NCBI GenBank assembly: GCA_012797735.1
Contig: JAAZOP010000373.1
Coordinates: 1 to 37,351 of the forward strand
Length of the DNA stretch: 37,351 nt
Direction: 5' to 3'
Source of the DNA: Myxococcales bacterium
GTDB taxonomy: Bacteria; Myxococcota_A; Polyangia; DRWM01; JAAZOP01
The translations under genes were made by a program, and so were the position numbers. Each line of letters begins with the position of its first letter. Position 1 is the stretch's first letter. Below, in pieces: positions 8,289 through 14,533 of this stretch. Below the pieces are notes generated by a model. The model was not told the origin of the DNA, made no database searches, and saw nothing but the letters and a program-made list of their open reading frames with translations.

Positions 8289-10820
8289 TCAGGGCTTCTC
8301 CGCCAGCAGGATCAGGTTCGGCGAGTCCCCGCCGAAGAACACGCCGGGGGTGGCGTACTGGCCCGAGATCTCGATCACGCGGAACCCCGCGGCGTGGAAC
8401 ATCTTGCCCATCTCGTGCAGGGAGTAGAGGCGAATCGAGTACTCGATCGTCTCCTGGTCGCCCGCGCTGGTCGCCCAGGAGCGCTTCACCGTCAGCCGGC
8501 TCTGGATGAAGTTGAAGTCGGTGTCTTCGAGGTACTGGCGGTCGTCGCCCTGGAACCAGGTCGAGCGGGGCTGGTGCCACAGGACGTGGTCGCGGTTGCA
8601 GACCTGGAGCAGGAAGCGGCCGCCGGGCTTGAGCGCCCGGGCGGCGTTGGCCAGCACCTGCACGTTCGTCTCGTCGTCGAAGTAGCCGAACGTCGTTCCC
8701 ACGCAGTAGGCCGCGTCGAACGCCGACTCGAACCGCAGGTCCCGCATGTCGCCCTGGATGAAGTTGAGCTTGACCGAGCGGGCCTGGGCGAGGTCGCCCG
8801 CGCGGGCCAGCATCGGCAGCGACAGGTCCAACCCCACCACCTCGAACCCGCGTACCGCGAGCTCGACCGCGTGCCGCCCGTCTCCGCAGCCGATGTCCAG
8901 CACCCGGGCGCCGCGGGCGACGCCGAGCGAGCGTTCGATGAACTCGACCTCGCGCCGCGTCTGCTCCGCGGAGTAGCGCGGCAGGGAACGGATGTACTCG
9001 TCGTCGAAAATCTCCTCCCACCACGGCCGGCGCTCGCCGTGCCTTCGCCGCCGGCGGGCGCGGGGGCGGGGCGCCGCCGAGGGCCGGGGCCGCTCCGGCG
9101 CGATCAACGGCGCCGCGCTCGGCTCGGATTCCTCCGTCTCGAGCGACTGGACGTCGGCCTCGCCGATCTCCTCCGCGACCTCCTCCGCCGGCGGGGCCTC
9201 TCCGGCCGCCGGCTTCACCTCGTCCCCCCGGCGGGTCACCGTCGCCGGCGCCATGCCGGGCAGGAATGCCGCCTCCAACTCCGCCAGCTTCTCCTCGGCC
9301 GTGACCGGGGTCCGGGGCACGTCGTCCTCGGGAATCGAGATCACCGAAGGCGGTGCGTCGAAACCCAGGTCCTCCGGCACCTCGACCACCCGCCGTTTCG
9401 CGGCCGGCGCGGCCGTCACCGGCGGCGCGAACGGGTCGTCCGTGTCGGCCTGCGGCGCCGCCGCGCCGAGCGGCGCGAGATCGCCGAGTTCGCGCGCCGC
9501 GCCCTCCTCCATTTCCACGGCCGGCGCGGCCGACGGCTCTTCCTCCGCTTCCGCGACGGCCGCCGCCGCGCCGGGCGAATCCTGCACGACCTGCACGTCG
9601 CTCAGCGAAACCTCTTCCGCATCGCCGGCCTCGCCCTCGCCCGTCGCCGAAGGAGCGCCGTCCGCCGGTTCCGCCACCGGTGTCGTCTCGGGCCCTTCCA
9701 CCGCCGCCGGGGCCGCTTCGGGTGCCGCCAGGGCCGGGTCCGCCGGCGCGGTTTCCGCCACGAACGTCCGTCCTTCCGCCGGCGTCACCTCCTCGTCCGC
9801 CGCTCCTCCTCCCTCCTCCGGGACTGCGGCCTCCTGAAGACCGGCGACCTCGGCCCACGTCTCCTCGCGGTCCGCCATCGCTCTTTCGGTCGAGGCCGGT
9901 TCCGCCGGCACGGGCTGCGACCGCGCGGGCACCTCCGGCACTGCCGCCTCCTCCGGCAACTCCTCTATCTCGGCGGCCGGAAGATCGACCACACCCGCGC
10001 CGGCCGATGCTTCCTCGACGACCGCGTCATCCACCAACTCGACGGGCGGTTCCGACGCCCGCGGGGGCGGCTCCGGGGGCCTGGTGGAAACGGGCCGGGA
10101 CGGGGGCGCGGGTCGAGGAGGCGCTGCCGGAAACGGGACCGGCGACGGGGCCGGCGCGGTGGGAGGCGGCGGCACCTGGGACGGACGGTAGGCCTCCTCG
10201 GAGATGATCACCTTCGGCAATCCGTCCGTGGGCGGCGCCGCCGGCACCGGCATGGACGGTCGGACTCTGGCGGGCGGCGGCACGGGCGCGGGGGGCGCGG
10301 CGGGCGGTGCGGACGGCCTGGAATCCAGCGGTGCGGGCGCCGGGGGCTGGACCGCGGGCCGGTGTGCCGGCACCGCTCCCGGGACTTCCGGAAGGTTCGC
10401 CGGGAACGGCACGAACGGCGGCGGCACCGGAATCACCGAGGACGACGGCTCGGCCCGGAAAGACGCGTGCGGCGGAGGCTCGGACGAACGCTTCGGCGGA
10501 CCCGCCGCGGCTCCGAACGACGGACGCGGCCGCGGCGGAGGAGCCAGCGTCGCTGCGGCGACGGCGGCCTCCAGCAGCTGGCCGGGAACCTCATCCGTCC
10601 GGTCTTCGTGCTCGGGAGCCGCCGGCGCCGGTTCGGTCGACTCCTCGGTCAGGTCGATCGGAACGTCGGCTTCGCCCTCGCCCAACACGACGGCGCGGCT
10701 CATAGCGATCGCCTGCGCGGGCGACAGGCCGTGGGCCGCCTCCGGCGCGACGTCGTCTGGTAGAGCGTCGGCTTCGGACGAGTCCGATCCGCCGGCGCCC
10801 TTCGGGCCCGTTGGCTTCAT
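8289..10820 (-). CDS. SAM-dependent methyltransferase with ~590-residue disordered acidic/Pro-rich N-terminus
   Basis: 843 aa. Residues 1 to ~590 are low-complexity Ala/Pro/Glu-rich sequence with recurring PP, EE and VP motifs and no visible fold, ending in a basic patch (RPRARRRRRHGERR). The C-terminal ~250 residues are a class I methyltransferase: motif I VLDIGCGDGRH (640-650), motif II VVGLDLS, acidic/aromatic FDAAYCVGTTFGYFDDE, and a post-motif LKPGGRFLLQVCNRD. The ATG at 10820 is chosen because it follows the phosphatidylserine decarboxylase stop by 7 bp. Substrate unknown. Coupling to psd allows a phospholipid (PE N-methylation) hypothesis, but the catalytic domain looks like a general methyltransferase-11/25 type. 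The disordered region uses the same codon bias as the rest and is probably real. Confidence 0.75.
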   Translation of the reverse strand: MKPTGPKGAGGSDSSEADALPDDVAPEAAHGLSPAQAIAMSRAVVLGEGEADVPIDLTEESTEPAPAAPEHEDRTDEVPGQLLEAAVAAATLAPPPRPRPSFGAAAGPPKRSSEPPPHASFRAEPSSSVIPVPPPFVPFPANLPEVPGAVPAHRPAVQPPAPAPLDSRPSAPPAAPPAPVPPPARVRPSMPVPAAPPTDGLPKVIISEEAYRPSQVPPPPTAPAPSPVPFPAAPPRPAPPSRPVSTRPPEPPPRASEPPVELVDDAVVEEASAGAGVVDLPAAEIEELPEEAAVPEVPARSQPVPAEPASTERAMADREETWAEVAGLQEAAVPEEGGGAADEEVTPAEGRTFVAETAPADPALAAPEAAPAAVEGPETTPVAEPADGAPSATGEGEAGDAEEVSLSDVQVVQDSPGAAAAVAEAEEEPSAAPAVEMEEGAARELGDLAPLGAAAPQADTDDPFAPPVTAAPAAKRRVVEVPEDLGFDAPPSVISIPEDDVPRTPVTAEEKLAELEAAFLPGMAPATVTRRGDEVKPAAGEAPPAEEVAEEIGEADVQSLETEESEPSAAPLIAPERPRPSAAPRPRARRRRRHGERRPWWEEIFDDEYIRSLPRYSAEQTRREVEFIERSLGVARGARVLDIGCGDGRHAVELAVRGFEVVGLDLSLPMLARAGDLAQARSVKLNFIQGDMRDLRFESAFDAAYCVGTTFGYFDDETNVQVLANAARALKPGGRFLLQVCNRDHVLWHQPRSTWFQGDDRQYLEDTDFNFIQSRLTVKRSWATSAGDQETIEYSIRLYSLHEMGKMFHAAGFRVIEISGQYATPGVFFGGDSPNLILLAEKP

Positions 10821-10827
10821 CCAGTCC

Positions 10828-11703
10828 TCACGCGCCGGCGTCGCCGAATCGGGCCACAGCTTGGCCCACCCGGATCGGCCCGGCACGGCGCACCCATACT
10901 ACCGGATCGCGGCCCGCGGGCCAAATCGCAATTACCGTCGACCCGAGGTTGAAGGCGCCGACCTCGGCTCCACGGTCCAGAGGTCGCGGTGGAGACAGCA
11001 CCACCGGCGGTCCCCCGGCCCGCCGCCGGACCTCCTGGGGTGTCGCGAAGACCAGTTCCGTCCGCGCCACGCCGAACGCCGCCACCAGCACCAGGAACAG
11101 CCGGCCGCCGCCGTCGAGCTCCAGTTCCACCACCGCCCGCTCGTTGCTCGACAGCACATCCGGACAGGCGCGCATTCCCAGCGAGTTCACGGGGAACCGG
11201 GTGCCGGGCACCGACTGCCAGGAGCGGACCAGACCGGAGGCCGGGAGGTGCACCCGGTGATAGTCCCGCGGCGACAGGTAGACGACGAAGAAGTGCCCAC
11301 CGCCGGAAATCGCCTCGCGATTCGGCCCGAGGGCCCGTCCGAGCGCCAGGCGGGAGCCCTTGATCGGCAGCACCGGGTCCGCGCCTGCCTGGAACGAGCC
11401 GCAGGCCTGCAGCGTTCCGTCGGCCGGCGAGACCAGCGTTTGCGGGTCGGGATCGATGGGCCGCGCGCCATCGGCGAGGCGCCGGAGGAAGAAGGCGCCG
11501 AGCGACGGGAACGTCGCCAGCGGCGCCGCCACCTCGCTCAGGTCCATCCCGCCGAGCCGCGCCAGGGCGCGGAACAGCGGCGCGCGCAACGGCCCGGGCA
11601 CGCGCGCATCCGCCAAGCGCTCGAACCACGCATAGCACGCCGGCGACGAGGCCAGCTCGAACGTCTTCGACAACAGGTCCCGACCGGGCGCCGACACCGC
11701 CAT
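10828..11703 (-). CDS. psd: Phosphatidylserine decarboxylase proenzyme
   Basis: 291 aa, membrane-associated pyruvoyl enzyme that decarboxylates phosphatidylserine to phosphatidylethanolamine. FPSLGAFFLRRL and LVSPADGTL near the N-terminus, GHFFVVYLSPRDYHRVHLP (proteolysis/catalytic His region) and FNLGSTVIAIWP match the family; self-cleavage is expected at LG|ST, turning Ser255 into the pyruvoyl group and giving a ~37-residue alpha chain. Length matches the E. coli-type enzyme (~320). The start MAVSAPGRD (ATG 11703) has an upstream GGGAGG; the frame is open much further but without homology. First gene of a two-gene unit with the methyltransferase. Confidence 0.95.
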   Translation of the reverse strand: MAVSAPGRDLLSKTFELASSPACYAWFERLADARVPGPLRAPLFRALARLGGMDLSEVAAPLATFPSLGAFFLRRLADGARPIDPDPQTLVSPADGTLQACGSFQAGADPVLPIKGSRLALGRALGPNREAISGGGHFFVVYLSPRDYHRVHLPASGLVRSWQSVPGTRFPVNSLGMRACPDVLSSNERAVVELELDGGGRLFLVLVAAFGVARTELVFATPQEVRRRAGGPPVVLSPPRPLDRGAEVGAFNLGSTVIAIWPAGRDPVVWVRRAGPIRVGQAVARFGDAGA

Positions 11704-11721: not shown

Positions 11722-11750
11722 ACGATACTCGCCCGGCGCAGCACCGGCAA
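11722..11750 (-). promoter_or_regulatory. Candidate psd promoter
   Basis: On the minus strand TTGCCG (11750-11745), 17-bp spacer, TATCGT (11727-11722). The -35 box is part of one arm of the inverted repeat at 11745-11797. The predicted start site lies about 12 nt upstream of the ATG. Confidence 0.45.
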
Positions 11751-11797
11751 GGACGGGAGGGCCCGCCGGCACGAATTCCCTCGCGTCGTCCTTGCCG
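11745..11797. repeat. 11-bp perfect inverted repeat between divergent genes
   Basis: CGGCAAGGACG (11745-11755) and CGTCCTTGCCG (11787-11797) are perfect reverse complements separated by 31 bp; a nested GAGGG/CCCTC pair (11757-11761, 11778-11782) could extend it as a hairpin. Each arm contains a TTGCCG that fits as the -35 box of one of the two divergent promoters. Possible operator for shared regulation. Confidence 0.6.
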
Positions 11798-11820
11798 CCG
11801 CCGTCGTCCCGCGGTAGGTT
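11792..11820 (+). promoter_or_regulatory. Candidate promoter of the small membrane protein/miaB operon
   Basis: TTGCCG (11792-11797), 17-bp spacer, TAGGTT (11815-11820). An SD-like AGGAGG follows at about 11842 and the GTG start at 11854. The same -10 sequence, TAGGTT, appears before the RHH gene. Confidence 0.45.
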
Positions 11821-11853: not shown

Positions 11854-12195
11854 GTGGCGCAACGGGGCGACAAGCGACGGGCGGCCGGTCTGGCGATCGT
11901 CGGCCTGCTGCTGGCGGCCGGCGGGATCGGCGGGTCGCTGGCGGCACGGCACGGCTACCAGAGCACGATCGAACGGCGCGCGGCCGCCGAGGCGGCCGCG
12001 CGCGACGCCGGACGACCCGCGCCGCCGGGAACGCCCGCGGAGGAGTTGCGCAAGGAAGCGGGCGTCATTCCCTACCTCCTGCACCTGTTCACCTTCGCCG
12101 GCGTGGTGCTGCTGCTGATGTCCGTGGCCGAGATCCGCGGCTGGCGGCTGCTCGACCCGATCGCCGAGCAACCCCCGCCGCCCAAGCTCTCCTGA
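11854..12195 (+). CDS. Small hypothetical membrane protein with two TM segments
   Basis: 113 aa from a GTG start that is well placed behind CAGGAGG. Hydrophobic segments at ~11-31 (GLAIVGLLLAAGGIGGSLAA) and ~73-90 (YLLHLFTFAGVVLLLMSVAE) flank a charged, probably helical Ala/Arg/Glu-rich stretch (40-70). Expected hairpin topology in the inner membrane. No family recognised. It lies 28 bp upstream of miaB and is probably co-transcribed with it. Confidence 0.65.
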   Translation: MAQRGDKRRAAGLAIVGLLLAAGGIGGSLAARHGYQSTIERRAAAEAAARDAGRPAPPGTPAEELRKEAGVIPYLLHLFTFAGVVLLLMSVAEIRGWRLLDPIAEQPPPPKLS

Positions 12196-12223: not shown

Positions 12224-13573
12224 ATGTCTGACCCTCGCCGCCCCCGCCGCTTCTGGTTCGTCACGATGGGGTGTCAGATGAACCGCCACGACTCGGTGCG
12301 CATGGCCGAGTCGCTCCGGGCCGCGGGCCTCGAGCCTGCCGCCGGGCCCGCCGATGCGGACGTCTGCATCGTCAACACCTGCTGCGTGCGGGAGAAGGCC
12401 GAACAGAAGGCGCGGTCGGCCGTCGGCCGGCTGGCCGCCTGGAAACGCCGGCGCGCCGGCCGGAGGGTCATCGTCGCCGGGTGCGCCGCGGAACGCCGCC
12501 GTGCCGGATGGCTCGACGACTTCGCGCACATCGATGCCGTGCTGGGCCCGGACCGGCTCGGCGAACTCCCCGGTGTCGCCGCCGTCCCGCCCGCGGCCGA
12601 CCTGCCGCTGGTGGCGGCGGGCTTCACCGCCGGGCGGCCCGAAGACTTCCTGGCCGCCCGTCCCGACCTGTCCGGGCCGGGGCCGACCGCCTTCGTCACG
12701 GTCTCGAAGGGCTGCGGCGAACGCTGCACGTTCTGCATCGTTCCCGCGGTGCGCGGCCCGTTGCGCCTGCGCCCTGCGGAGGACGTGGTCGCCGAGGCGG
12801 CGGGCCTGGCAGCCGCGGGCGTCCGCGAAGTGACGCTGATCGGGCAGGCGGTCAACGACTACCGGCGCGACGGCGTCGCGTTCGGCGAGCTGCTGCGCCG
12901 CGTCGGCGCCGTGGCGGGACTGCTCCGGCTGCGCTACACGAGCCCCCATCCGCGCTTCGTGGACGAGGAAACCGCGCGCGCCCACGCCGAGACGCCGGTG
13001 CTGTGCGAGCACGTCCACCTGCCCGTCCAGTCCGGCTCCGACGAGGTGCTGCGGCGGATGGGCCGCCGCTACCGCCGGGACGACTACCGCCGCGCGATCG
13101 ACCGGCTCCGCGGCGCCCGCGCCGACCTGACCTTCGGGACCGACGTGATCGTGGGCTTCCCCGGCGAGACCGAGGCGCAGTTCGAGGAGACCGTGGCGCT
13201 GGTGCGCGAGGTCGGTTTCACGCAGGTGTTCTCCTTCGCCTACTCCCCGCGCCCCGGCACCGCCGCCGCGCGATGGCCCGACGACGTCCCCGCGGCCGAG
13301 AAGGCGCGCCGGTTGCGGCGGCTGCAACGGGTCGCCGACGAGATCGCCGGCGCGTGGCGCCGCGGGCGCGTCGGCGCCGCGGAGGAGGTGCTGCTGGAGG
13401 GACCGAGCGACCGGGCCGGCGGCACCTGGCAGGGCCGCACGCGACACAACGACGTCGTGCACGTGCGCCCGGCCGCGGGGTTCACCCCGGAACCGGGCGC
13501 GCTGCTGCGCGTGACGATCGAGGAGGCCCGCCCGCATTGCCTGGCGGGAACGCCCGTCGCGGAGGCGTCGTGA
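12224..13573 (+). CDS. miaB: tRNA-2-methylthio-N6-dimethylallyladenosine synthase (MiaB-type methylthiotransferase)
   Basis: 449 aa, cytoplasmic radical-SAM methylthiotransferase that modifies i6A37 in tRNAs. Three N-terminal cysteines for the auxiliary 4Fe-4S cluster are present (TMGCQMN C17, NTCCVRE C53, AGCAAE C87). The radical-SAM CxxxCxxC is KGCGERCTFCIVP (C164, C168, C171). RYTSPHPRF, HVHLPVQSGSDEVLRRMGR and DVIVGFPGETE are classical MiaB blocks, and the C-terminal ~70 residues (EVLLEGPSDR...LLRVTIEEARPHCLAG) form the TRAM RNA-binding domain. The HLPVQSGS and MGRRY features favour MiaB over RimO or MtaB. Its stop overlaps the GTG of the VanZ-like gene. Confidence 0.93.
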   Translation: MSDPRRPRRFWFVTMGCQMNRHDSVRMAESLRAAGLEPAAGPADADVCIVNTCCVREKAEQKARSAVGRLAAWKRRRAGRRVIVAGCAAERRRAGWLDDFAHIDAVLGPDRLGELPGVAAVPPAADLPLVAAGFTAGRPEDFLAARPDLSGPGPTAFVTVSKGCGERCTFCIVPAVRGPLRLRPAEDVVAEAAGLAAAGVREVTLIGQAVNDYRRDGVAFGELLRRVGAVAGLLRLRYTSPHPRFVDEETARAHAETPVLCEHVHLPVQSGSDEVLRRMGRRYRRDDYRRAIDRLRGARADLTFGTDVIVGFPGETEAQFEETVALVREVGFTQVFSFAYSPRPGTAAARWPDDVPAAEKARRLRRLQRVADEIAGAWRRGRVGAAEEVLLEGPSDRAGGTWQGRTRHNDVVHVRPAAGFTPEPGALLRVTIEEARPHCLAGTPVAEAS

Positions 13574-13998
13574 CGGGGGAGACCGGCCGCTCCGACGTCC
13601 GCTGGCGCGCCTGGTGGCCCGCCGTCGCCTGGGCCGCCCTGGTCCTGACGTTGACCTCGATCCCCCACCCGACGCTGCCGCTCGCCGCGTTTTCGTGGAG
13701 CGACAAGCTGGCCCACGCCGTGCTGTACGCCGTGCTGGGCTTCCTGGCGGCGCTCGGCGCGGCCCGCGACGCGCGGCTTCGGCGGCATCCGATCGGCTTC
13801 CTGCTGCTCGCCGTCGTCGGCTGCCTCGCCGCCCTCGGGGCGCTCGACGAAGTGCATCAGGCCTGGATCCCGGGCCGGTCGGCCGACGTCCTCGACTGGG
13901 TCGCCGACCTGGCCGGCGGAACCCTCGGCGCCTTCGCGGGCCTTCCGTGGCTGCGGCGACGCTCCACGGAGCCGGCGGTCGAGTCGGGAAAGGAGTGA
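13570..13998 (+). CDS. VanZ-like integral membrane protein
   Basis: 142 aa starting at GTG 13570, overlapping the miaB TGA (GTGA), so translation is coupled. Four hydrophobic segments: ~14-31, ~46-64, ~76-93 and ~104-120. The loops hold the VanZ-family hallmarks FSWSDKLAHAVLYAVLGFL and LDEVHQAWIPGRSADVLDWVADLAGG (the conserved DEx2Q and R-x-x-D-x-x-D pattern). VanZ proteins are of poorly defined function; the first member gives low-level teicoplanin resistance, but most are simply chromosomal membrane proteins. Confidence 0.85.
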   Translation: MTGETGRSDVRWRAWWPAVAWAALVLTLTSIPHPTLPLAAFSWSDKLAHAVLYAVLGFLAALGAARDARLRRHPIGFLLLAVVGCLAALGALDEVHQAWIPGRSADVLDWVADLAGGTLGAFAGLPWLRRRSTEPAVESGKE

Positions 13999-14002
13999 GA
14001 CG

Positions 14003-14533
14003 ATGGACGAAGCGCGGTCGCGCGGCCTGGTCCTGCCCTTCGACGGGAAGACCCCGGTGCTCCACCCCGGCGTCTTCTTGGCCCCGACCAGTGTCGTCGT
14101 CGGCGACGTGGAGCTCGGCGAGGACGTCTCGGTCTGGTTCCACACCGTCGTGCGGGGCGACGTCCATCGCATCCGTGTCGGCCGGCGGACGAACCTGCAG
14201 GACCTGGTCGTGGTCCACGTGACCTACGGCACCGGGCCGACCACGATCGGGGAGGACGTGACGGTCGGACACGGCGCGGTGGTCCACGCGGCGACGATCG
14301 GGGACCGCTGCCTGGTCGGCATCCGCGCCGTCGTGCTCGACGGCGCGCGCATCGGCGAGGGCTCGATCGTCGGGGCGGGCGCGCTGGTGCCGCCCGGCAT
14401 GGAGGTGCCGGCCGGCAGCGTCGTGATGGGCGTGCCGGCGAAGGTGGTGCGGAAGGCGACCGAGGCCGACCGGAAGATGATCCTGGAGTTGGGCCGCCGC
14501 TACCTGGACGTCACCGTGCCGGGATATCGATAG
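14003..14533 (+). CDS. Gamma-class carbonic anhydrase family protein (left-handed beta-helix)
   Basis: 176 aa. Hexapeptide repeats typical of the left-handed parallel beta-helix run from about residue 30 to 150 (VGDVELGEDVSVWFHTVVRG, TIGEDVTVGHGAVVHAATIG). All three predicted metal-binding histidines are present (H72, H90, H95), as are the R51-G-D53 pair and N64-L-Q-D. These match the YrdA/CaiE/Cam group, trimeric zinc or iron enzymes with proven or suspected CO2 hydration activity. An SD GGAG precedes the ATG, 4 bp after the VanZ-like stop, so it is the last gene of the miaB unit. Confidence 0.9.
   Translation: MDEARSRGLVLPFDGKTPVLHPGVFLAPTSVVVGDVELGEDVSVWFHTVVRGDVHRIRVGRRTNLQDLVVVHVTYGTGPTTIGEDVTVGHGAVVHAATIGDRCLVGIRAVVLDGARIGEGSIVGAGALVPPGMEVPAGSVVMGVPAKVVRKATEADRKMILELGRRYLDVTVPGYR

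Follow-up and report, generated by a model that had tools for sequence, protein, structure and literature searches.

Genes and predicted promoter boxes around the gap between psd and miaB

We analysed a stretch of 37,351 nucleotides from the genome of a Myxococcales bacterium (hereafter the window). Within it, psd on the minus strand and a predicted operon of a 113-aa frame, miaB and a VanZ-family gene on the plus strand diverge from a gap of 150 bp. This gap was compared across four genomes of the genus, namely the bacterium's own genome (G000) and three relatives (G001, G002 and G003), two of which are close to each other. The features of the locus are as follows.

10828..11697, minus strand: psd, phosphatidylserine decarboxylase (PF02666, E 7.9e-43, and TIGR00163 above cut-off, both on 10828-11703)
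11722..11727, minus strand: -10 box of the predicted psd promoter, TATCGT (TATCGT in G000, G001 and G002, TATGTT in G003; 17 bp from the -35 in all four)
11745..11752, minus strand: -35 region of the predicted psd promoter, CCTTGCCG (all 8 letters, on which the comparison was anchored, identical in the four genus genomes)
11745..11755, plus strand: left arm of an 11-bp inverted repeat, CGGCAAGGACG (inner 3 bp not conserved)
11787..11797, plus strand: right arm of the 11-bp inverted repeat, CGTCCTTGCCG (conserved only as CTTGC)
11791..11797, plus strand: -35 region of the predicted right-hand promoter, CTTGCCG (CTTGC invariant in the four genus genomes)
11815..11820, plus strand: -10 box of the predicted right-hand promoter, TAGGTT (TAG(G/C)TT with a 17-bp spacer in the four genus genomes)
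11854..12195, plus strand: 113-aa frame, first gene of the right-hand operon (no family match in Pfam or NCBIfam; AGGAGG 6 nt 5' of its GTG at 11854)
12224..13573, plus strand: miaB, tRNA methylthiotransferase (TIGR01574, 362.9 bits against a cut-off of 355.3)
13570..13998, plus strand: VanZ-family gene overlapping the end of miaB (PF04892, NF037970)

The names psd, miaB and VanZ had been assigned from the letters alone and were upheld by Pfam and NCBIfam. The start of psd is likely the GTG at 11697-11695, which we favour over the ATG at 11703; this GTG aligns with a V of the G002 protein and has GGGAGG 7 nt upstream. The 113-aa frame, which sits between the right-hand promoter and miaB, had no match in Pfam or NCBIfam. 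A search of G001 to G004, the last a genome of the same order, found a counterpart in G002 only (1 of 4, 81% identical), likewise placed between promoter and miaB, and none in G001, G003 or G004. In G001 and G003 the promoter is followed directly by miaB.

Two neighbouring genes were also noted. Following the VanZ gene, at 14003-14533 on the plus strand, lies a frame for a hexapeptide-repeat protein resembling gamma carbonic anhydrases, scoring 176.6 bits with NF050158, under the cut-off of 250. Such a gene likewise follows VanZ in G001 and G003. Downstream of psd, at 8289-10886 on the minus strand, lies a methyltransferase frame with a long N-terminal part rich in Pro, Ala and Glu. G003 has a matching frame close to psd, and the N-terminal part also matches L051, a psd locus from a metagenome assembly.

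The original prediction placed a TTGCCG box 17 bp from a -10-like box on each side of the gap, and both coordinates and spacings proved correct. On the psd side TTGCCG occupies 11750-11745, followed on the minus strand by a 17-bp spacer (11744-11728) and TATCGT (11727-11722). On the right side TTGCCG at 11792-11797 is followed on the plus strand by a 17-bp spacer and TAGGTT at 11815-11820. The spacing of sigma-70-type promoters, 16-18 bp between hexamers, was thus found on both sides, at 17 bp in all four genus genomes.

A generic sigma-70 scan returned 0 hits and found neither promoter, as it requires 9 of 12 letters of the E. coli consensus. Both promoters fail this test, which is the yardstick of one scan. 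In GC-rich bacteria, sigma-70-type promoters need not resemble the E. coli consensus closely.

Conservation of the predicted promoters in the genus

The psd protein of the window is 65%, 81% and 64% identical to those of G001, G002 and G003, respectively, and psd and miaB diverge in all four genomes. Both promoters were found in each of them, with a CTTGC -35 and a TA(T/G)nnT -10 exactly 17 bp apart. Toward psd the shared form is CCTTGCCG-N17-TA(TCGT/TGTT), whilst toward miaB it is CTTGCnn-N17-TAG(G/C)TT. The psd side kept 10 of 12 box letters invariant in the four genomes, 1 of 17 spacer letters and 7 of 53 non-box letters; the right side kept 9 of 12, 6 of 17 and 11 of 66, respectively, all of these counts being biased toward the boxes by locating the promoters with the motifs CGGCAAGG (psd) and CTTGC-N19-TAGNTT (right). 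An unguided alignment of the four genomes recovered GGCAAGG, CTTGC and TAGnTT as invariant blocks and offset the psd -10 of G001 and G003 by two columns from that of G000 and G002.

The whole arrangement could in principle be fortuitous, with promoter-like hexamers and a repeat arising by chance in a GC-rich gap. TAGGTT and TTGCCG are indeed poor against the E. coli consensus, and the generic scan found nothing. Against this, the box pairs and their 17-bp spacing are exactly kept in four genomes despite diverged spacers (1 of 17 and 6 of 17 letters invariant), and we regard a chance origin as very unlikely. Both promoters are very probably real, judging from this conservation. A divergent promoter pair with the predicted boxes at 17-bp spacing is therefore supported in 4 of 4 genus genomes, the bacterium's own included.

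A search of 59 genomes gave a psd match in 57. When miaB was searched for at 150 psd loci, only those of G000, G001, G002 and G003 gave matches, with L051 grouped with G002. None of the 26 loci L013-L038 and none of the 79 loci L052-L130 matched miaB within their flanks of 1.5-3 kb, which were often cut. G004 yielded a psd fragment, and its contig of 3,962 bases lacks miaB. The nearest named psd record was L051, from a Deltaproteobacteria metagenome assembly (80% identity), and many of the next matches were Myxococcota assemblies, which points to a probable myxobacterium-like lineage.

The inverted repeat and the case for a shared regulator

As predicted, a perfect 11-bp inverted repeat is present, with arms at 11745-11755 and 11787-11797 that lie 31 bp apart. 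Perfect inverted repeats of at least 11 bp with a loop of 3-60 bp occurred 23 times in 208,104 bases of the same genome (0.11 per kb) and twice in the window. The other repeat in the window, at 11976-12003, falls inside the 113-aa frame and has perfect 12-bp arms around a loop of 4 bases. Such a repeat appeared in 8 of 1000 simulated 150-bp sequences whose composition resembled that of the window. Given two CCTTGCCG -35 regions, an arm of at least 11 bp arose by chance in 8.45% of 2000 trials, and given a shared CTTGC alone in 0.375% of 4000 trials. Taken alone the repeat is mildly unlikely, and its extension to 11 bp on a shared box is a mild coincidence.

An RNA element was considered and rejected. 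No Rfam family reached its gathering score within the window, no terminator-like sites were found near the repeat, and neither transcript would carry the repeat, since it lies upstream of both predicted starts.

The original prediction proposed that a protein bound to the repeat could control both promoters at once. Such a dimeric or paired regulator on both arms would couple phospholipid synthesis to the tRNA-modification operon. The perfect 11-bp repeat covers both -35 boxes, and its rarity in random 150-bp stretches (8 in 1000) also speaks for a dedicated site. The relatives speak against it. The repeat around the two -35s is 11 bp long in G000, 6 bp in G002 and 5 bp in both G001 and G003, so conservation of both arms, which had been proposed as a check, is lost beyond the -35 core in three congeners. 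What they still share is CCTTGC or CTTGC, which is the -35 core itself. The gap between the -35 hexamers measures 41 bp in G000, 47 bp in G002, 34 bp in G001 and 12 bp in G003, and a range as wide as 12 to 47 bp leaves no constant geometry for an operator. The stretch between the boxes is conserved neither in length nor in letters across the four genomes, and thus shows no sign of a common operator. By eye, CCGGCTTGC is present twice in G001, with G instead of T before the inner copy, and once in G003; this difference would fit a repeat-mediated change in length.

Pattern searches pointed the same way. The 7-bp version of the pair, GGCAAGG-N20-50-CCTTGCC, was found at the locus in one of five genomes of the order, the bacterium's own, with a spacing range that misses the 12-bp arrangement of G003, whose letters differ anyway. 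A genome search for the 11-mer, also proposed as a check, returned 34 sites in the same genome against 36 for the reversed control, which is chance frequency and gives no sign of enrichment. Eight of these 34 sites were read, and a TAnnnT at 14-20 bp was found behind only the two described here; the other six lacked a -10 and showed no recurrence at other promoters.

The operator model was rejected after tests of the conservation of the arms and of their spacing, of the 11-mer counts and of the 7-bp paired pattern in five genomes. We consider a protein that switches both promoters through the repeat highly improbable. Loss in close relatives, which the original prediction had named as evidence against itself, was observed for the repeat and not for the promoters. 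A narrower version assumes a regulator of this species only, which recently gained its site as the CTTGC core grew to an 11-bp arm, and which would jointly control psd and the miaB operon here and not in the congeners. This we hold to be extremely unlikely. A regulator that overlaps the -35 boxes themselves would be compatible with the sequence, but nothing calls for one.

Two probable ordinary promoters back to back and comparison with known systems

The form of both promoters recurs across the genome. CTTG-N17..23-TATNNT had 79 sites and its reversed control 27; spacers of 14 to 20 bp were represented by 2, 2, 21, 34, 15, 5 and 0 sites, respectively, with the peak at 17 bp (34 of 79). In the congeners the pattern likewise exceeded its control (96 against 35 in G001, 97 against 41 in G002, 120 against 58 in G003). 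The base after CTTG was C in 22 of the 34 sites with a 17-bp spacer, counted by eye, compared with 38% in a 208-kb sample (binomial P 0.0015).

For CTTG-N-TAGNTT the spacers in the same genome also peaked at 17 bp (15 of 30). Its total fell under that of the reversed control (30 against 88), as did that of CTTGC-N-TAGNTT (12 against 24), in both cases with a reversed pattern whose dinucleotide make-up differs from that of the tested one. For the TAGNTT patterns, only the spacer peak supports promoters. Of the 12 CTTGC-N-TAGNTT sites, 7 (the present locus included) had an open frame 6-57 nt downstream with third-position GC of at least 0.89, 2 had one at 110-160 nt (third-position GC 0.88-0.93) and 3 had none; as counts without a computed background, these give only a hint of a promoter role. 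The usual promoter form of this lineage seems to be CTTG(C)-N17-TAtnnT, and both promoters of the gap fit it.

Taken together, our results make it very likely that two separate and ordinary promoters of the sigma-70 type stand back to back in the gap, and that the repeat is no dedicated operator. From the minus-strand promoter, CCTTGCCG-N17-TATCGT, a transcript would run leftward into psd. From the plus-strand promoter, CTTGCCG-N17-TAGGTT, a transcript would run into the 113-aa gene, miaB and VanZ, if the three form one operon. Housekeeping RNA polymerase carrying the main sigma factor would presumably read each promoter independently, with no common regulator. The boxes would be mirror images because both promoters use one CTTGC-type -35 in opposite directions, and in the bacterium's own genome a few neighbouring letters match too, which would extend the symmetry to a perfect 11-bp repeat.

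Two separate promoters might still influence each other through supercoiling between predicted starts about 110 bp apart, or in G003 through polymerase exclusion. That supercoiling can couple divergent promoters lying near each other is generally established, and the back-to-back geometry is found in all four genus genomes. Against such coupling, the gap varies fourfold and no particular distance is kept. It is possible, at a rather low probability, and would be an addition to two independently read promoters, not an alternative to them.

The locus is ordinary and matters little in itself. It does illustrate how a single -35 box, used twice, can account for an inverted repeat between divergent genes. 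CTTGC-N17-TA(T/G)nnT may also serve as a usable promoter form for an uncultured, myxobacterium-like lineage, in which a scan of the E. coli style missed both promoters; a limited literature search on promoters of this lineage found no paper. If the coupling model held, a single switch would control the synthesis of membrane lipids and the modification of tRNA, which would be surprising, and the relatives speak against it.

Divergent promoters under one operator, with a repressor palindrome between divergent genes, are a known arrangement. The present locus resembles them in that an inverted repeat lies between genes that diverge. It differs in that neither the repeat nor its spacing is conserved, and none of the flanking genes matched to a family encodes a regulator. 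Divergent sigma-70-type promoters placed back to back between divergent genes are common in bacteria, and the likeness here is close: two full sets of -35 and -10 boxes, each with a 17-bp spacer, face away from each other within one gap. The difference, a -35 of CTTGC in place of TTGACA, is nothing essential. A third comparison is with the bidirectional promoters of E. coli, in which, according to Warman et al. (PMC12825309), divergent starts flank or fall within one shared, pseudo-symmetrical -10. A bidirectional promoter with a shared -10 was rejected for the present gap, where the -10 boxes are separate (11722-11727 and 11815-11820). Like this locus, the E. coli promoters combine symmetry of sequence with divergent transcription over a short distance, whilst here 87 bp separate the -10s and it is the -35 boxes that are symmetric.
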